Source: Cryobacterium fucosi
Lineage (GTDB): Bacteria; Actinomycetota; Actinomycetes; Actinomycetales; Microbacteriaceae
Reading direction: 5' to 3'
Assembly (NCBI RefSeq): GCF_004403515.1
Contig: NZ_SOHH01000066.1
Location: forward strand, 1-64,000
Length of the DNA stretch: 64,000 nt
The stretch's first letter is position 1. Every line of letters starts with the position of its first letter. Of this stretch, positions 25,534-59,805 are shown piece after piece. Position numbers and translations under genes: made by a program. The notes beneath the pieces were generated by a model, which worked only from the letters and a program-made list of their open reading frames with translations, had not been told where the DNA came from and did no database searches.

Positions 25534-25860
25534 GTGAGCACAGACACCAGCACCCCAGTCATCCGCATTCCACCCGTCGGCAGGCAGGACATCGGCAGGC
25601 GGGAGTTCACCGGCCCCGTGATCCGCACGCCCGGCGGGGGTCCACGCCTCGAGCCGATGGTCGACACCGTCCTGCGCCTGCTCTGGCAGCTCGTGGGCGT
25701 CTATGTCTGGCTGGTGCTGCTCGCCAAGCGGGAACGACCCGCACGAGCCACTGTGTGGGGCCGGCCACGGGACAGCCTTGGCTTCAGCCTGGCTGCGCGA
25801 GCGGTCAAGGGGGCGCCAAGGCAGAGTCACTCAAGCAGCAGCCTCGGAGGCCACCGGTAG
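25534..25860 (+). CDS. Small one-helix protein whose C-terminus was replaced by island insertion
   Basis: A 108-aa frame starting GTG (VSTDTSTPVIRIPPVGRQDI), with a Gly/Pro-rich N-terminus and one hydrophobic helix (TVLRLLWQLVGVYVWLVLLA). TACTCT lies just upstream, suggesting a leaderless start. Codons 74-80 (WGRPRD region) fall inside the 20-bp repeat that copies the end of tRNA-Thr. After the repeat the frame runs into island DNA for about 28 codons (SLGFSLAARAVKGAPRQSHS and beyond). In an uninterrupted site the frame would end after only LNP and a TAA inside the tRNA antisense. The original protein would thus be 83 residues. Family unknown. Confidence 0.55.
   Translation: MSTDTSTPVIRIPPVGRQDIGRREFTGPVIRTPGGGPRLEPMVDTVLRLLWQLVGVYVWLVLLAKRERPARATVWGRPRDSLGFSLAARAVKGAPRQSHSSSSLGGHR
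25754..25773. repeat. Distal attachment repeat (copy of the tRNA-Thr 3' end)
   Basis: TGTGGGGCCGGCCACGGGAC here is identical over 20 bp to 31132-31151, the CCA end, acceptor and T-stem part of tRNA-Thr. Sequences diverge at once on both sides. This copy has no tRNA attached, as expected of the displaced 3' end left at the far border of an integrated element. Confidence 0.85.
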
Positions 25861-26523
25861 TTTGGCCAGTCGCCACTCCAGCATCCCCTCGTTCAAGCGG
25901 GTTGCTCGGCGGCCGCTCCGGCGCAGCAGGCTAATGGCCTCGTAGGCGAGCACGCAGTACGCGCCGCGGCAGTAAGCGACGACGTCGCGTCCCGGCGGCA
26001 GCTCACTGAGCCGGTCACTGAGTTCCTCGAGGGGGATGGAGAGGGCGCCGGGGATGTGTGCGGCCTGGTATTCCTGCCATGGCCGGACATCCAGCACGGT
26101 TACCGTCCCCGCCGCGGCTCGGGCGAGAAGTTCCTCTCGGGTGATCTCCTCTCCCGCTTCATGGACCCCCGGCTCGGGTTCATCGCGCCCAAGGTAGGCG
26201 ACACGCTTCAGTTCCACGTCGGACAAGCGTGTCTGAGCGACGGTGCGCACGAGGCTGTACAGCCGGGCAACGTCGTCTCCGGCCAGTTGGTAGTGAATCC
26301 GCGTGCCCTCCCTGCGGGTGGTGACCAGACCCGCATGTTTGAGGGTCTGCAGGTGGGCGGATGCGGTGGTCAGCCCAAGGCCGGCAACGGTCGCCAACGA
26401 TTCCACCGTGCGTTCGCCCTGGGAGAGAAGGTCGATCAGCTCGAGGCGTTTGCCGCTGCCCAAGGCCTTCCCGACGCGTGCGAACTGCTCGAACAGCTCC
26501 GATTTCTTCTCACGATCACCCAT
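25831..26523 (-). CDS. ArsR-family regulator fused to a rhodanese domain
   Basis: 230 aa. The N-terminal winged helix (GKALGSGKRLELIDLLSQGE, VESLATVAGLGLTTASAHLQ, TLKHAGLVTTRREGTRIHYQ) is ArsR/SmtB type. It contains no Cys, so it is not a classical metal sensor or a SqrR-type dithiol switch. The C-terminal rhodanese domain (about residues 125-225) has VTVLDVRPWQEYQAAHIPGA and the active loop VAYCRGAYCVLAY with the catalytic Cys and a second Cys five residues on. The fusion suggests that sulfur transfer or persulfide on the rhodanese Cys is sensed. A strong AAGGAGG precedes ATG 26523. The divergent, AT-rich 115-bp gap holds a TCCAT-N6-ATGGA repeat (26567-26582), a candidate operator. Confidence 0.9.
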   Translation of the reverse strand: MGDREKKSELFEQFARVGKALGSGKRLELIDLLSQGERTVESLATVAGLGLTTASAHLQTLKHAGLVTTRREGTRIHYQLAGDDVARLYSLVRTVAQTRLSDVELKRVAYLGRDEPEPGVHEAGEEITREELLARAAAGTVTVLDVRPWQEYQAAHIPGALSIPLEELSDRLSELPPGRDVVAYCRGAYCVLAYEAISLLRRSGRRATRLNEGMLEWRLAKLPVASEAAA

Positions 26524-26638
26524 GCGCGTCCTCCTTGGTTCCCTCCACACTAGTATCAACTAATAATCCATGGTTTTATGGAATATGTGAGTTTCCTGCT
26601 GCACGGCAGGGGTCGTCTGAGTTGAGGAGTGCGTGCAC

Positions 26639-28012
26639 ATGGCAACATTGCATCTTGTTCCGGTTGTTGACGAGGGGTTGGGTAACTCCACCTACCTTCT
26701 GGATGTCGGTGAGGATCGGGCGCTGGTGGTGGACCCGGAGCGGGACCTGCGCCAGGTGCGCGCGGAGGCTCGGCAATTGGGGCTGACGATCGCCTACGCC
26801 GCAGAAACCCACCTGCACGCGGACTTCATCTCCGGCGTGCGCGAGCTGCAGCACACTGAAGGCGCCACGGTGCTCGCCCCGGAGGCCGGCCCGCGCGAAT
26901 TCGCCCACACGGTAATCAACGATGGCGACACCCTGGACCTCGGCGACTTCACTCTGCAGGCGCTCGCGACACCCGGCCACTCGCCCGAACACCTCTGCTA
27001 CCTGCTCCTCGACCACGGGCGCATCGTCGGCGTGTTCACCGGCGGGTCCCTCATGGTCGGGACCGCCGGTCGCACCGACCTCGTGAGCCCGGACATGACC
27101 GTTCCGCTGGCCCGTGCCCAGTACCACTCGTTGCACCGGCTAATGGAGCTACCCGACGACACACCGGTCTGGCCCACCCACGGCGCCGGGTCGTTCTGCT
27201 CGGCCGCAGCCGGTGGTGAACGTACGACCACGATCGGCCGGGAACGCGCGACCAACCCGCTGCTCCAGGTCGTCGGCGAGGACGCCTTCGTCGAGGCGCT
27301 GCTCGGCTCCCTCGGCACCTTCCCGGACTACTTCCTGCGCCTCGGCGAGGTCAACCGGCGGGGACCCGTCGTGCTCGGGACAACCCCGTCCCTGCCGGCG
27401 CTGTCCGCCGACCGGGTGAAGGAGCTGCAGGAGCAGGGCGCGCAGATCGTGGATGCCCGCCAGCCCGCGGACTTCGCGGCCGGGCACATCCCCGGCTCCC
27501 TGTCCATCGCGCTGCGCCCGGCGTTCGCCACCTGGCTCGGCTGGCTGGCCGACCCCAATCGGCCAATCATCATTGTGCGGAATCCGGACCAGGATCCGGA
27601 GGACATCGTCTGGGCGTCCGCGAAGGTCGGCTTCGACGCCCTCACCGGTGAACTCGACGGCGGCATTCCGGCGTGGACTCGCTCATCCGCAGCCGTGACG
27701 GCATCGCTGATTGACGCCGAGCGTCTGGTCTCAGGCGCCGAGGCATCCGCCGCCGTGATCGATATCCGGCAGGCCTCGGAGTATGCGACAGGTCACGTGG
27801 CCGAGGCGCGGAGCATCGAGTTGGGTGGCCTGACCGAGCATCTTTCCGAACTCCCCACGGGTCCGCTGGTCGTCATGTGCGGGCACAGTGAGCGGGCCAT
27901 GAGCGCCGCGAGCATTCTCGAGCGCTCAGGCCGGACCGACGTCTCCGTCCTGGACGGTGGTCCAGCGGATTGGATGCGGGCTGCAGGTCGCAGCCTGGAG
28001 AACGGACGATGA
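26639..28012 (+). CDS. MBL-fold hydrolase fused to two rhodanese domains (persulfide dioxygenase-like)
   Basis: 457 aa. The metallo-beta-lactamase domain (1-210) has ETHLHADFISG, the HxHxD metal motif, with further ligands in LATPGHSPEHLCY and VWPTHGAGSFCS. This is the glyoxalase-II/ETHE1-like branch. Rhodanese domain 1 (about 250-345) has IVDARQPADFAAGHIPGSLS, but its active loop is IIIVRNPDQD, without Cys. Rhodanese domain 2 (about 355-455) has VVMCGHSERAMSAAS with the catalytic Cys. The family is linked to persulfide and sulfane-sulfur handling. ATG 26639 is 10 bases after GAGGAG; GTG 26633 is an alternative. It overlaps the next gene by ATGA. Confidence 0.88.
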   Translation: MATLHLVPVVDEGLGNSTYLLDVGEDRALVVDPERDLRQVRAEARQLGLTIAYAAETHLHADFISGVRELQHTEGATVLAPEAGPREFAHTVINDGDTLDLGDFTLQALATPGHSPEHLCYLLLDHGRIVGVFTGGSLMVGTAGRTDLVSPDMTVPLARAQYHSLHRLMELPDDTPVWPTHGAGSFCSAAAGGERTTTIGRERATNPLLQVVGEDAFVEALLGSLGTFPDYFLRLGEVNRRGPVVLGTTPSLPALSADRVKELQEQGAQIVDARQPADFAAGHIPGSLSIALRPAFATWLGWLADPNRPIIIVRNPDQDPEDIVWASAKVGFDALTGELDGGIPAWTRSSAAVTASLIDAERLVSGAEASAAVIDIRQASEYATGHVAEARSIELGGLTEHLSELPTGPLVVMCGHSERAMSAASILERSGRTDVSVLDGGPADWMRAAGRSLENGR

Positions 28013-29292
28013 AGGCCGCGCGCGCCGTCATCACGCTGGGACTTCGGCAGAACATCGCCCAGTTCATGCTTCTCGTCGCCGTGAACGCCCTCGTCGGCGG
28101 CACGCTCGGCCAGGAACGCACGGTGCTTCCCCTGCTGGCAGACCAAGTCTTCCACCTGGATCTGTACACGAGCGCCCTGACCTACATCGTCGCCTTCGGC
28201 CTGGCCAAGGCCGGCACCAACTACTTCGCGGGCACCCTCTCCGACCGGTACGGTCGCAAACCCGTCCTGATCTCCGGCTGGCTGATCGCCATCCCCGTGC
28301 CGCTGCTGCTGATCTTCGGCCCGTCGTGGGGGTGGATCGTAGCGGCCAACGTCGTCCTCGGCATCAGCCAGGGCCTGACCTGGTCGACCACCGTGATGAT
28401 GAAGATGGACCTCGTCGGCCCGGAACGTCGCGGACTGGCGATGGGCTTCAACGAGGCCGCCGGTTACCTGGGCGTCGCGGGCACGGCCCTGGCCACCGGG
28501 TACATCGCGGCCAACTATGGCCTGCGCCCCGGCCCGTTCCTGCTCGGCGCCGCCTTCATCGCCCTGGGCCTCGGACTCTCCGTGCTCTTCGTGCGAGAGA
28601 CGCACCACCATGCCAAGGTCGAGGCGGCCAACCACGTCTCCGTGCACGCCCAGGCCGGCTCCACCCTCAGCAACCGGCAGGTGTTCACCCTCACCAGCTT
28701 CCGGGACAGATCGCTGTCTTCGGTCAGCCAGGCCGGCCTGGTCAACAACCTCAACGACGGCCTGGCCTGGGGACTGTTCCCGATCCTGTTCGCGGCCGCC
28801 GGCCTGAGCATCGAACGCATCGGCATCCTCGCCGCCGTCTACCCGGCGGTCTGGGGAGCCGGCCAACTCATCACCGGAGGCCTCTCCGACCGGATCGGCC
28901 GCAAGTGGTTGATCGTCGGCGGGATGATCGTGCAGGCCGTCGCCCTGGGGATGGTGGCTTTCGGACACAGTTTCGGGGTCTGGCTGGCGGCCGCCGTGCT
29001 GCTGGGGGCCGGCACAGCCATGGTCTACCCGACCCTGCTCGCCGCCATCGGCGACGTCGCCCACCCCGAATGGCGCGCTCGCGCCGTGGGAATCTACCGG
29101 TTGTGGCGTGACGGCGGGTTCGCCGTGGGGGCGCTGCTCTCCGGGCTTCTGGCCGACGCCTTCGGCATCCCGTGGGCTGTCGCCGTGGTCGCCGCGCTGA
29201 CGGCGGCATCTGGACTCATCGTCGCCGTCCGGATGCGCGGCTCTGACCACCACCACCGGCCGCCGCTGCCTGTGAAGTTGAGCGTCGCATGA
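28009..29292 (+). CDS. MFS transporter
   Basis: A 427-aa protein with about 12 hydrophobic helices and the MFS loop motifs GTLSDRYGRKPVLISGWLIA (2-3 loop) and GGLSDRIGRKWLIVGGMIVQ (8-9 loop). A central loop carries ETHHHAKVEAANHVSVHAQA, rich in His, and the tail is GSDHHHRPPLP. Direction of transport and substrate cannot be told. Placed between a persulfide-type hydrolase and a thiol-conjugate-type deacetylase, efflux of a sulfur compound or of a detoxified product is a reasonable guess. Starts and ends overlap both neighbours by 4 bases. Confidence 0.88.
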   Translation: MKAARAVITLGLRQNIAQFMLLVAVNALVGGTLGQERTVLPLLADQVFHLDLYTSALTYIVAFGLAKAGTNYFAGTLSDRYGRKPVLISGWLIAIPVPLLLIFGPSWGWIVAANVVLGISQGLTWSTTVMMKMDLVGPERRGLAMGFNEAAGYLGVAGTALATGYIAANYGLRPGPFLLGAAFIALGLGLSVLFVRETHHHAKVEAANHVSVHAQAGSTLSNRQVFTLTSFRDRSLSSVSQAGLVNNLNDGLAWGLFPILFAAAGLSIERIGILAAVYPAVWGAGQLITGGLSDRIGRKWLIVGGMIVQAVALGMVAFGHSFGVWLAAAVLLGAGTAMVYPTLLAAIGDVAHPEWRARAVGIYRLWRDGGFAVGALLSGLLADAFGIPWAVAVVAALTAASGLIVAVRMRGSDHHHRPPLPVKLSVA

Positions 29293-30026
29293 CCGCAAAC
29301 CTCCTACCAGCGTGGCGTCGAGTTCTCGTTGTCGTTGCCCATCCTGATGACGAGTCGTTCGGTCTCGGTGCAGTTCTCGCGTCCTTTGTGGGATCTGGCT
29401 GTGAGGTGTCGGTACTTTGCCTGACGCGAGGTGAGGCTTCCACGCTCCATGGCGTCGCAGGGGACCTTGCGAAGATCCGGGGCGCGGAACTGGCGGGAGC
29501 TGCACGCGAGCTCGGCATCGGACGGGTCGAACTGCGCGACTACCCTGACGGTCAGCTGTACGACGTGCCGCTCACCGTCCTCATCGATGAAATCGCGACG
29601 TTCGCTGCGGGGCAGCGCGGTGATGGCATCCTCGTGTTCGACCCGAGTGGCGTCACCGGCCATCCCGATCATCGGCGGGCAACCGAGGCAGCTCTCGCCT
29701 TCGCCCAAATTCATGGCAGTCCCGTCCTGGGCTGGACGCTGCCCTCAGCCGTGGCGCTGGCATTGCAGACGGAGTATGGCGCGCCATTCCTCGGCCACGC
29801 ACCGGCGGACATCGACATGGTCGTCAGCGTCGACCGTGCCACACAGAAGAAGGCCGTGGCCTGCCACCCGAGTCAGGCCGTCCCGGGCCATGTCCTGTGG
29901 CGCCGACTGGAACTCCTCGGCCCCCACGAACACCTGCGATGGCTTCACGGGGATGAATCTCAGGCAGTTAGAGACAACGATCCGGCACTTGATCGGGCGC
30001 ACAACCACCAAGAAAGAATCTCATGA
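29289..30026 (+). CDS. PIG-L family (LmbE-like) deacetylase
   Basis: 245 aa. The zinc motif AHPDDESFGLGAVL lies near residues 18-31 and the second His ligand in GVTGHPDHRRATEAAL. These are the landmarks of MshB/Mca/BshB enzymes, which deacetylate GlcNAc-inositol or cleave mycothiol S-conjugates. With mshD elsewhere in the window (46694-47590), a mycothiol-conjugate amidase-type role is attractive, but substrate is not proven. Position inside the sulfur island favours a thiol-related function over glycolipid synthesis. Confidence 0.85.
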   Translation: MTANLLPAWRRVLVVVAHPDDESFGLGAVLASFVGSGCEVSVLCLTRGEASTLHGVAGDLAKIRGAELAGAARELGIGRVELRDYPDGQLYDVPLTVLIDEIATFAAGQRGDGILVFDPSGVTGHPDHRRATEAALAFAQIHGSPVLGWTLPSAVALALQTEYGAPFLGHAPADIDMVVSVDRATQKKAVACHPSQAVPGHVLWRRLELLGPHEHLRWLHGDESQAVRDNDPALDRAHNHQERIS

Positions 30027-30373
30027 ATGTCTTGATGATCATCAACGGATCGGCCTACGGGCTGGACTCCACCTTCAACGCCATCCGACTCTCCAACACC
30101 CTCGCCAAACGAGACGGCGTCGATGTGACCGTTTTCCTCATGGGAGACGGCGTGACCGCAGCGATGTCCGGGCAGAAGACCCCGGACGGCTACTACAAAC
30201 TCGACCGAATGCTCGGCACCATCACCCGCAGCGGCGGCCAAATCCTGTGCTGCGGCACCTGCATGGATGCCCGCGGCATCACCGAGGCGATGTTAGTGGA
30301 GGGCGCTAGCCGATCCACCATGGAGGCGCTCGCCGACCACACACTCGCTGCGGACAAAGTCCTCGTCTTCTGA
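30023..30373 (+). CDS. DsrE-family sulfur-carrier-like protein
   Basis: A 116-aa protein with the DsrE/F fold: MNVLMIINGSAYGLDSTFNA, VDVTVFLMGDGVTAAM, and a conserved Cys cluster GGQILCCGTCMDARGI (about residues 73-88), the position of the persulfide-carrying Cys in DsrE/TusD proteins. It would pass sulfane sulfur between enzymes of the module. ATG overlaps the PIG-L stop by 4 bases. Confidence 0.87.
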   Translation: MNVLMIINGSAYGLDSTFNAIRLSNTLAKRDGVDVTVFLMGDGVTAAMSGQKTPDGYYKLDRMLGTITRSGGQILCCGTCMDARGITEAMLVEGASRSTMEALADHTLAADKVLVF

Positions 30374-30427
30374 CCCCTCCATACCCACCCCCAATTCAAT
30401 CGACCAAATCTTGTCAGGACCAAAACC

Positions 30428-30952
30428 ATGAAGCCCAACAACATTGATCTGACAGTCATTGCCGGTATCCTCGAACGAGGAAAACAGGACCCAACGGCCC
30501 TCAAAATACACAAACGAGTCGAAGGCACCTGGAATTTCGCTCAGGGGGCCCCTGCCTTCACAGCAACCATGGCCCACGGGACGCAGACGACCACCTTGCA
30601 CGTCGACATTGCCCCCGGATTCGGCGGTGCCGGCCTGGCACCCGACCCCCTTCAGTACATGCTGCTCGGACTCGGCTCCTGCTACGCGGCAACCGTCGTC
30701 ACCATCGCAGCCCTCGAGAACACCGAGGTAACTGACCTGCAGGTCATTGCCGAGAGCCATGCGGACGTGTCCAGCGTCTACGACATCGCCGACAACCCCC
30801 TGATGGAACGAGTGTCCGTCATCGTCAAGATCACCGCGGACGTCGACGACGACACGCTCAATCGGTGGCAGCAGAGCGCGCGGGACAAGTGCCCCTTCGC
30901 TTACACCGTCATGAGTGCGGTTCCGTTGGAGACTCGCATCGAACGGGCGTAA
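30428..30952 (+). CDS. OsmC-family thiol peroxidase-like protein
   Basis: 174 aa. Both peroxidatic/resolving cysteines are in place: LGLGSCYAATVVTIAALEN and ARDKCPFAYTVMSAVPLETR. OsmC/Ohr proteins reduce organic peroxides, and some members act on persulfides. It lies 54 bp after DsrE on the same strand, last gene before the island border. AGGACCAAAACC precedes the ATG. Confidence 0.87.
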   Translation: MKPNNIDLTVIAGILERGKQDPTALKIHKRVEGTWNFAQGAPAFTATMAHGTQTTTLHVDIAPGFGGAGLAPDPLQYMLLGLGSCYAATVVTIAALENTEVTDLQVIAESHADVSSVYDIADNPLMERVSVIVKITADVDDDTLNRWQQSARDKCPFAYTVMSAVPLETRIERA

Positions 30953-31131
30953 GCGGCCACGGTTCACCAAGCGGGTCCCGTCCCCGGTGACCGAAGTGCG
31001 ACAACACCGGACGTAGAAGTTTGTACACTGGCGTCCGGGCGCTGAAGGGTCGGAGTTCACGACCTACGCACGCACATCCTGCCCCGCTGGGGCGCCGGTC
31101 GCCATCGGCTCGATCAGCCGCCACGAAGGGT

Positions 31132-31151
31132 TGTGGGGCCGGCCACGGGAC
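31132..31151. repeat. Proximal attachment repeat inside tRNA-Thr
   Basis: Identical 20-bp copy of 25754-25773. It covers the encoded CCA end, the 3' acceptor strand and part of the T-stem of tRNA-Thr, plus two bases beyond, the classic location of an att site in a tRNA gene. Confidence 0.85.
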
Positions 31152-31209
31152 TTGAACCCGTAACCCCCACTTTACAAGAGTGGTGCGCTACCAATTGCGC
31201 CAGGCCGGC
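31134..31209 (-). tRNA. tRNA-Thr (anticodon UGU)
   Basis: 76 nt on the minus strand: acceptor GCCGGCC/GGCCGGC, D-stem GCGC/GCGC, anticodon arm CCACT-CTTGTAA-AGTGG with anticodon TGT, T-arm ACGGG-TTCAAGT-CCCGT. CCA is encoded, which puts C at discriminator position 73. It is intact despite island insertion at its 3' end. Confidence 0.93.
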
Positions 31210-32365: not shown

Positions 32366-32393
32366 TGAACAGCCGGTGACCGACCGCTAAAAT
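32366..32393 (+). promoter_or_regulatory. Candidate promoter of the sugar ABC ATPase gene
   Basis: TGAACA (32366-32371) and TAAAAT (32388-32393) are 16 bp apart, in a 254-bp gap that otherwise shows nothing. A GAAGGAGA ribosome site lies about 10 bases before the ATG at 32448. Confidence 0.35.
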
Positions 32394-32447
32394 CCCATCA
32401 CTACGGATCGTCCGGCACGTACCTGCCGGTGAAGGAGAATACAGAAA

Positions 32448-33545
32448 ATGGCTTCAGTCACGTTCGACAAGGCAACCCGTCTCTACCCGGGTTCCACCCG
32501 CCCCGCGGTCGACCACCTCGACCTTTCGGTCGCCGATGGTGAATTCCTCGTACTGGTCGGCCCCTCCGGCTGCGGAAAGTCCACCTCCCTGCGCATGCTC
32601 GCCGGCCTCGAAGAGGTCAACGACGGCAACATCTTCATCGGTGAGCGCAACGTGACGGATGTCCCGCCGAAAGACCGCGACATCGCCATGGTCTTCCAGA
32701 ACTACGCTCTGTACCCGCACATGACCGTCGCCGAGAACATGGGCTTCGCGCTCAAGATCGCCGGCGTCAACAAGGACGAGCGCGCTGCGCGGGTCCTCGA
32801 AGCGGCCAAGCTGCTCGACCTCGAACCGTACCTCAGCCGCAAGCCGAAGGCCCTCTCCGGTGGCCAGCGTCAGCGCGTCGCCATGGGACGCGCCATCGTG
32901 CGTCAGCCCCAGGTGTTCCTGATGGACGAGCCGCTGTCAAACCTCGACGCCAAGCTGCGCGTGCAGACCCGCACCCAGATCGCGTCGCTGCAGCGCCGCC
33001 TGGGGGTCACCACCGTTTACGTCACCCACGACCAGACCGAGGCCCTCACCATGGGCGACCGCATCGCGGTGCTCAAGGACGGCGTGCTCCAGCAGGTCGG
33101 CACCCCCCGCGACCTGTACGCGAAGCCGAACAACGTGTTCGTCGCCGGCTTCATCGGCAGCCCGGCCATGAACCTGTTCCTGGCAGACACCGTCGATGGC
33201 GGCATCAAGTTCGGCACCGCGACGGTCCCCGTGCCCCGCGAGACGCTCGCCGGCTCCACCGGCAAGAAGGTCACCATCGGAGTCCGCCCCGAGGACATCC
33301 ACCTGTCGGCCACCCCGGGCGACGGCCTCGAAGTTGCCGTCGACCTGGTCGAGGAACTGGGCGCCGACGGCTACCTCTACGGGCACTCCACGGTCGAGGG
33401 CAAGCGCACCGACATCGTCGCCCGCGTCGATGGCCGCTCGCACCCCGCGGCCGGCGACACCGTCTACCTCACCCCGACGGCGCACCACCTGCACGTGTTC
33501 GACGCAGAGTCCGGCCTCCGCCTCGGCGGGGCAGTCACTGACTAA
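32448..33545 (+). CDS. Sugar ABC transporter ATPase, UgpC/MsmK type
   Basis: 365 aa. Walker [18 protein letters not shown]-loop VFQNYALYPHMT, signature LSGGQRQRVAMGRAIV, Walker B VFLMDEPLSNLDAK, and H-loop YVTHDQTEALT. The C-terminal TOBE/regulatory domain (about 240-365) has GVRPEDIHLS. Such ATPases are shared by several CUT1 sugar importers, and no permease or binding-protein gene is next to it, which fits a multitask ATPase. A strong terminator follows. Confidence 0.93.
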   Translation: MASVTFDKATRLYPGSTRPAVDHLDLSVADGEFLVLVGPSGCGKSTSLRMLAGLEEVNDGNIFIGERNVTDVPPKDRDIAMVFQNYALYPHMTVAENMGFALKIAGVNKDERAARVLEAAKLLDLEPYLSRKPKALSGGQRQRVAMGRAIVRQPQVFLMDEPLSNLDAKLRVQTRTQIASLQRRLGVTTVYVTHDQTEALTMGDRIAVLKDGVLQQVGTPRDLYAKPNNVFVAGFIGSPAMNLFLADTVDGGIKFGTATVPVPRETLAGSTGKKVTIGVRPEDIHLSATPGDGLEVAVDLVEELGADGYLYGHSTVEGKRTDIVARVDGRSHPAAGDTVYLTPTAHHLHVFDAESGLRLGGAVTD

Positions 33546-58470: not shown

Positions 58471-58524
58471 CTTGTGTCGCGGTCGGGGTGCGCGAACGCC
58501 GGATGCCACCGGCACCCGCGTGAA

Positions 58525-59805
58525 TCAGGCGTGGCTGGCCTGCCGGGCCAGCTCGCTCTGAACCGTGAGAGCGAGTTCGCGAAGCAGAACCAGGTTGACG
58601 TCCGCCTCCGCACGCGGCTCCGCCCCGAACACGCACAGGGCCCCGATCCGTTCGCCGGAGGGAGACTCGATCGGGAACCCGGCGTAGAACCGAACCTCCA
58701 GCCTGCCTGCGGCAGTCGGACCGGTGCGGAATCGTTCATCCGCCCGGGCGTCGGGGATGACCGTGGCTCCCGATTCCCTGATGACGAGGGTGCAGAATGA
58801 GTCGGCACGGGGCAACTCGCCGCGGTCGAGCCCTGCGGTGCACGACATCCTGACCCGCTCGGCGCCTACGATGCTGAAGGATGCCCCGTCCGCGCCGAAC
58901 GAGGTGAGCGCAAGCTCGACGATCGGGCCGAGGAGTGCCTGATAGTCCGGGTCGGGCCGGTCGAGTTCATCGACAGCGCGTTGCCGCCTCGCCTCGCTCC
59001 GCAGTGCGTCAGGCTCCGACGGATCGGCCTCCCCGCTCTCGTGCCGATGCAGCGCCGGATCGAGGGCGGGCGTCAGGACGGCGGCCAGCAACTCGGCCCA
59101 CTGCTCGTACACCGGGGCCGCCCGGTAGTCCTGGTACTGACTGCGCTCCGGCAGATCGGGCGCGATCGACAGCAGAGTGGCGCGCTGCATCGGCGCGCAC
59201 ACCGCTCGGGTGATTCGGTTCAGGCGCTGCGCGTGCCGCTCGGCGAGCGTGCCCAGCACGGAGTCGAAGATCGGAATGGAACGGATGCCCGAGGCCTCGA
59301 CGATGTAGACCTGCGTGGTCTGGGAGGTCGAGCGCTCCAGCCGTGCGAGCAGGTCGGCAACGGCGCGCCGCCACAGGCTCGTCGCCGTGTAGAAGACGGC
59401 GTCGCCGACGCCGAGGAACACGACGATCGCGTCGTAGCGGCAGAGCCTGGCCCCGTCGAGGGCGCCGACGGCCGACCCGATGAGCATCTGGGGGTCGGCA
59501 ATGACGTCGACGTCCGCCACGCGGCCGGTCCGCCGGGTCAGCGCCCTGGCGAGTGCCCCCGGTACGCCCAGGTCGTGGCTGAGCACTCCCCAGCCGACCA
59601 GCGGCCCGCTGCCGAAAAGCAGCACCCGGTCGGAGTCGAGGCCGGCGGAGTGGGCCTGGGGCGCATCCGAGGGCCGGGGGATGTTCTCCAGGTCGCGGAA
59701 GTTCAGGATCACCCAGGCGCGCATCAGCGGCGCCAGCGCGAGTCGGAACGGAGCGGATGCCCAGCCGTCGAACGGGTGGGCCGGCCACCGAGTCATCTTC
59801 GCCAC
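58525..59805 (-). CDS. Pseudo-SGNH hydrolase-like domain fused to a GAF domain, paralogue 1
   Basis: 426 aa. Residues about 30-265 have SGNH/GDSL secondary structure order: DRVLLFGSGPLVGWGVLSHD (block I, where GDS is replaced by GSG), YDAIVVFLGVGDAVFYTATS (block III, usual GxND is GVGD), [10 protein letters not shown], and PVYEQWAELLAAVL (block V without the DxxH). The catalytic triad therefore appears lost. Residues about 285-426 are a GAF domain: [40 protein letters not shown] then CVFG. GTG 59805 follows GGGGGACG. About half identical by eye to 62197-63426. Confidence 0.7.
   Translation of the reverse strand: MAKMTRWPAHPFDGWASAPFRLALAPLMRAWVILNFRDLENIPRPSDAPQAHSAGLDSDRVLLFGSGPLVGWGVLSHDLGVPGALARALTRRTGRVADVDVIADPQMLIGSAVGALDGARLCRYDAIVVFLGVGDAVFYTATSLWRRAVADLLARLERSTSQTTQVYIVEASGIRSIPIFDSVLGTLAERHAQRLNRITRAVCAPMQRATLLSIAPDLPERSQYQDYRAAPVYEQWAELLAAVLTPALDPALHRHESGEADPSEPDALRSEARRQRAVDELDRPDPDYQALLGPIVELALTSFGADGASFSIVGAERVRMSCTAGLDRGELPRADSFCTLVIRESGATVIPDARADERFRTGPTAAGRLEVRFYAGFPIESPSGERIGALCVFGAEPRAEADVNLVLLRELALTVQSELARQASHA

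Follow-up and report, generated by a model that had tools for sequence, protein, structure and literature searches.

A likely decayed integrative element at tRNA-Thr(UGU) of Cryobacterium fucosi with a putative sulfane-sulfur gene set

The stretch analysed here, referred to as the window, comprises 64,000 nucleotides of the Cryobacterium fucosi contig NZ_SOHH01000066.1 and contains an island of six genes (25754-31151) next to the 3' end of a tRNA-Thr(UGU) gene. It is very likely that this island represents a decayed tyrosine-recombinase integrative element, of a type still intact in two genomes of the genus designated G040 and G008, and that its cargo was left as a fixed chromosomal gene set. 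A tRNA-integrated island of the tyrosine-recombinase kind should be bounded by direct repeats of the tRNA 3' end, should be missing from an empty site in close relatives, should have integrase-bearing counterparts at this tRNA in relatives, and should itself contain an intact integrase gene. The first three features were found; of the integrase gene only a 67-bp relic was detected, and the island is therefore classed as a decayed derivative.

The tRNA-Thr(UGU) gene serving as integration site is located at 31134-31209 on the minus strand (ARAGORN; Rfam RF00005). An exact direct repeat of 20 bp, TGTGGGGCCGGCCACGGGAC, is present in two copies on the same strand, one at 31132-31151, which includes the tRNA 3' end (proximal att copy), and one at 25754-25773 on the 3' side of the tRNA (distal att remnant). 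With up to three mismatches allowed, these were the only two matches to the 20-mer in the window, and two matches were obtained in none of 100 shuffles. The tRNA part of the repeat, 18 bp in length, occurs with at most one mismatch at just these two places in the whole assembly (3.44 Mb, 122 contigs). Identity and placement of the repeat, reported in an earlier note made from the sequence alone, are confirmed by these searches. The duplicated tRNA part comprises CCA, the discriminator, the 3' strands of the acceptor and T stems, and two bases of the T-loop. The leading TG, which the earlier note had counted as tRNA sequence as well, lies outside the tRNA. Since the native flank of the tRNA in genome G020, where the site is empty, is TG as well, the tRNA-derived repeat is 18 bp long, and the shared TG may be a coincidence. 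The base preceding CCA in this tRNA (31134-31137) is C, which is unusual for tRNA-Thr.

To compare the site within the genus, 57 genomes including that of the window were searched, all of which matched, and tRNA-Thr neighbourhoods extending at most 16 kb to the island side were fetched from the 56 others. This yielded 57 loci, two of them from G039; a weak second match in G043 (L089) was left out of later counts. Eight of the 57 loci end early at contig ends (L033, L058, L065, L067, L073, L076, L079, and L088), three of them (L058, L073, and L079) before the upstream genes. Within these stretches, none of the six island proteins was found beside tRNA-Thr in the 56 genomes (tblastn, 1e-5). In G003, G039, and G020, the site is empty and has a single repeat copy followed by TTGAACCCG, and the flanks of the window, when joined computationally, align with these three sites. 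A small upstream open reading frame (ORF) terminates some 2 bp short of the tRNA in G003 and G039 and about 20 bp inside it in G020; in the window, the island supplies a new tail to this ORF. Island-free relatives in which the upstream frame reaches tRNA-Thr and the 20-mer is present once, as predicted beforehand, are therefore represented by these genomes. In 15 of the 57 loci (14 genomes), no more than 360 bp lie between the end of the match to the upstream nitroreductase and the tRNA, and a second 18-bp copy with at most one mismatch, which in the absence of an insertion would argue against integration, is contained in none of the 15. For the remaining loci, a gap of 0.7-10 kb separates the upstream genes from the tRNA, or the search of the island side did not detect these genes. 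In G052 (L064), tRNA-Thr is reversed between its usual neighbours, the DsbA-like and the nitroreductase/msrB genes.

The integration proposed for the island is supported by these data. Had the six genes been ancestral at this site and been lost in the relatives, the repeat would be coincidental. No support for such a history was found, and the genes were not found in the stretches fetched from the 56 relatives, in which 8 of the 57 loci are cut short and 3 of these end before the upstream genes, the 18-mer is unique to its two places in the assembly, and an integrase relic is present. An ancestral gene block is thus extremely improbable and was rejected.

This relic, part of a tyrosine integrase gene, is located at 31060-31126 on the plus strand, between the last cargo gene and tRNA-Thr. 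It is out of frame, reads towards the tRNA, and spans about codons 109-130 of the integrase, within the N-terminal SAM-like domain. In a genome search, 62 of 67 positions were identical to the integrase gene of G040 with one gap (E 2.6e-19), and 61 of 66 positions to that of G008; the score was 96 bits, compared to a maximum of 42.8 bits in 200 shuffles. The relic directly adjoins the last 8 bp of the att arm of the element, AAGGGTTG (31126-31133, plus strand), as identified by comparison to the arms in G040, G050, and G049. These are the three of the 57 relative loci in which AAGGGTTG precedes the tRNA, each with an att arm. In G040, the same two pieces are 905 bp apart, and around 905 bp between the relic and the tRNA-side end of the element appear to have been lost from the window. 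An integrase gene was thus once present here and has been mostly deleted. A further segment, 31008-31037, was considered for its resemblance to the leader 5' of the integrase gene in G040 and dropped, as 133 of 300 shuffles scored as high.

Among the ORFs of at least 70 aa in window positions 15001-36000, none matches an integrase profile built from five integrases. No copy of the 414-aa integrase of G040 and G008 was found in the genome of the window at E<=1e-60; PF00589 matches are present at eight places elsewhere in this genome. The statement that the island has no integrase accordingly holds for an intact gene and has to be amended for the relic. Judged from the sequence comparisons, the absence of an intact integrase is a secondary loss.

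Integrase-bearing islands at the same tRNA, which had been suggested as a further check, were detected in G040 and G008 with an intact and in G051 with a broken gene. The 414-aa tyrosine integrases of G040 and G008 are encoded beside tRNA-Thr, read towards it like the relic, and share 97% identity. Their hosts differ in closeness to that of the window, the DsbA-like flank protein being 94% identical in G040 and 77% in G008. Both PF00589 and the SAM-like domain PF14659 are present in the integrase. Among phage records, the match ranked first has 37.5% identity, and 60% is reached by none of the 1373 records that matched. A search of 398 genomes of the family at E<=1e-130 gave no match, a result of little weight as the three known carriers cannot be in this draw. 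Repeats of the tRNA 3' end are 39 bp long in G040 and G008 (39/39) and in G051 (38/39), with distances to the tRNA of 5.3, 3.8, and 1.9 kb, respectively; in G038, a copy of 37 bp was found at 89%. The cargo of the islands in G040, G008, and G051 differs from that in the window; the stretch in G040 includes an RHS-repeat protein.

In G008 (L043) and G051 (L041), the tRNA-side arm of the element, GTGGATCCCAGTG, occurs a second time just before the far 39-bp repeat, an arrangement suggestive of tandem accretion at tRNA-Thr. These arrangements, along with the tRNA-derived repeats kept at both ends of the island, would fit a cis-mobilizable element that is still active, retaining usable att sites and moving with the integrase of another element. 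However, the far repeat is without 19-21 of its 39 bp, the proximal arm is gone save 8 bp, and the integrase family was not found in the genome of the window at the threshold given above. It is therefore quite unlikely that the island is still active.

Across the genus, an att arm is situated just before the tRNA in 8 of the 57 loci; L036, L041, L042, L043, L044, and L053 were called by pattern with at most two mismatches and L059 and L082 by eye. A fainter trace is present in L035. When the nine genomes with an arm or trace were searched for PF00589, intact integrases near the tRNA were confined to G040 and G008, G051 had a broken one, and the remaining six gave no match within 30 kb of tRNA-Thr on the same contig. 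Thus, L042, L044, L053, L059, and L082, with an arm beside tRNA-Thr and no PF00589 within this distance, look like further occupants without integrase. As intact integrases are near only two of the eight arms, one could speculate that cargo islands at tRNA-Thr(UGU) routinely shed their integrase in this genus and persist as a standing pool, to which the sulfur island would belong and which is re-mobilised by accretion of integrase-bearing elements, but this is unlikely.

The cargo begins on the distal side with a gene on the minus strand for an ArsR-type regulator fused to a rhodanese domain (25831-26523, start codon chosen by hand; PF00581, PF01022; NF033788). The other five genes are on the plus strand. 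The first specifies an MBL-fold protein resembling persulfide dioxygenases (26639-28012; PF00753, PF00581 in two stretches). Its MBL and two rhodanese domains are combined in one chain, the architecture of CstB-type persulfide dioxygenases, and the best sequence matches in PDB are 3tp9 and 3r2u over nearly the full length, the latter of which we take to be CstB of S. aureus; ETHE1 (4chl) is also matched. It is followed by genes for an MFS transporter (28012-29292; PF07690), a PIG-L family deacetylase/amidase with weak similarity to BshB/MshB/Mca below the cut-offs (29289-30026; PF02585), a DsrE-family protein (30023-30373; PF02635), and an OsmC-like protein (30428-30952; PF02566). According to Pfam, none of the six genes specifies an integrase or a transfer protein. 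By its domains, the cargo is probably a persulfide/sulfide detoxification set.

Loci of PIG-L relatives were fetched from named genomes to inspect their neighbourhoods. Among the best 80 of at least 518 such loci, ArsR was nearby in 16, the dioxygenase in 15, with many of these matches just 32-37% identical, DsrE in 14, and a relative of the MFS protein in 4; OsmC was in none of these 80. The order ArsR (minus strand), dioxygenase, MFS, PIG-L recurs in a metagenome-assembled genome of Dormiibacterota (L142). Such recurring neighbourhoods support the prediction of one functional set for sulfane-sulfur handling.

The genes for ArsR, the dioxygenase, and the MFS transporter have 83-85% DNA identity to genes located elsewhere in G048, G049, G014, G019, and G046. 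At four-fold sites, the identity of this block to G049, G014, G019, and G046 is 57-73%, compared to 38-56% for flanking core genes, of which in G014 and G019 DsbA alone was comparable. From this higher identity it appears that the three-gene block was probably moved horizontally between lineages of the genus. PIG-L relatives are located elsewhere in the congeners G029 and G054 (61-62% identity); in 398 family genomes, only the window's own PIG-L was found at E<=1e-40, a draw that cannot settle the genus given these relatives. Likewise, OsmC was represented only by the window's own protein at E<=1e-25 in 396 genomes of the order, and its plasmid matches, three records, are all 23-27% identical. 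The three-gene block is carried by Rhodococcus and Streptomyces plasmids at 66-70%, and none of 111 matching plasmid records holds 80% of the island in one place.

A decayed element of the G040/G008 type is favoured by the position of the relic, which sits where G040 and G008 have their integrase. Several observations weigh against parts of this history. In G048, cargo (64-70%) and core (58-68%) are alike at four-fold sites. DsrE, with 34-43%, is no better kept than the core and may therefore have a source other than that of the three-gene block. In all five genomes with the block elsewhere no integrase match is near it, and the copies near a tRNA, in G019 and G046, are without a tRNA repeat; the cargo may therefore have arrived separately from the element. 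In the latter two genomes (L114 and L115), a distance of 1.1-1.2 kb separates the block from the 3' end of tRNA-Ser(GCT), and a second island at this tRNA was considered and rejected, as no tRNA match of more than 9 bp is present on the cargo side. Furthermore, the far repeat of the window measures 18-20 and not 39 bp and the distal end of the island is unlike that in G040, so that both ends need not derive from one integration. Possibly the element was already decaying when it received the cargo, whose function is predicted from its domains.

A history in two steps, in which the element integrated and decayed and the sulfur cassette was inserted later by homologous or illegitimate recombination, the integrase never having moved the six genes, is a possibility, though the less probable one. 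It is a variant of the decayed-element history, in which the cassette may have come with the element or later. The other locations of the three-gene block are consistent with it, as are the non-matching distal end and the GC content, which varies along the cargo from 0.678 for ArsR to MFS to 0.640 for PIG-L, 0.615 for DsrE, and 0.625 from OsmC to the island end. On the other hand, an extra event is required, and the cargo is placed between both repeat copies, like that in G040.

For the decayed element, the following course can be envisaged. An element of the G040/G008 type would have inserted at the 3' end of tRNA-Thr(UGU). The tRNA would have been restored in this process and its former 3' end displaced outward to form the second repeat copy, as inferred from the geometry, the empty sites, and the integrase relic. 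It would have carried, or later gained, the persulfide/sulfide-detoxification cassette. Mobility would then have been lost by deletion of most of the integrase gene, of which 67 bp persist beside the final bases of the att arm. Trimming would have reduced the far repeat to 18-20 of 39 bp, both steps being suggested by comparison to G040, G008, and G051, while the cargo stayed as a fixed chromosomal gene set. Based on domains and neighbourhoods, the ArsR-rhodanese protein could sense sulfane sulfur and act as repressor, the CstB-like enzyme could form sulfite and thiosulfate by oxidation of low-molecular-weight persulfide, DsrE and OsmC could pass on sulfane sulfur or reduce it, a product could be exported by the MFS protein, and PIG-L perhaps acts on mycothiol conjugates.

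Two further features were noted in the window. An msiK RNA (RF01747), a cis-regulatory motif, is located at 32385-32443, just upstream of an ORF at 32448 labelled from its sequence as ABC-transporter ATPase-like. At 58490-58581, ARAGORN predicted a tRNA-Ala(GGC) of 92 nt, which is not supported by Rfam and is probably a false call.

Regulator, persulfide dioxygenase, rhodanese, and transporter are parts of known sulfane-sulfur circuits (PMC7533328, PMC5823870), for example CsoR, PDO, a rhodanese, and a sulfite transporter in S. coelicolor (PMC7533328). The island resembles the CstB type, the S. coelicolor circuit (PMC7533328), and the bigR operon (PMC5823870) in its regulator with persulfide dioxygenase, its rhodanese domains, and its transporter; it differs by the ArsR-rhodanese fusion, the MFS type of transporter, and the additional PIG-L, DsrE, and OsmC.

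Cis-mobilizable elements (CIMEs), as outlined in PMC5704250, have lost integration and transfer genes and have kept attL and attR; a course of decay with subsequent accretion is described there as well. The island is alike in its lack of integration genes, its att-derived repeats at the tRNA 3' end, and the accretion suggested at this site. Unlike a CIME as outlined there, one of its att copies is truncated, the far one retaining 18-20 of 39 bp, so that the att copies are only partly kept, the proximal arm is mostly deleted, and mobilizability is doubtful. Integration and transfer genes are missing by Pfam and integrase-profile searches, which does not imply that transfer genes were present earlier, and no parental integrative and conjugative or integrative and mobilizable element with such genes was identified. 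No accreted element was seen beside the island. With the tRNA-site islands of the Islander/TIGER kind (PMC12424338), it shares the origin by a tyrosine integrase, the tRNA 3'-end duplication, and empty sites in relatives. The software of this resource is stated to require one integrase gene or more and would therefore skip the island, as the earlier note had anticipated.

The island thus adds one more, well-supported example to a known type, the tRNA-site integrative element decayed towards a CIME. Cargo of this kind, in the present case a probable sulfide/persulfide-detoxification set, would escape island finders that depend on an integrase. As a case of a mobile island turned fixed it is of an ordinary type and unusually legible, down to the level of bases: at a single tRNA within one genus, the empty site, the intact element, the broken integrase, and its fossil can all be observed, and document how such an island becomes resident.

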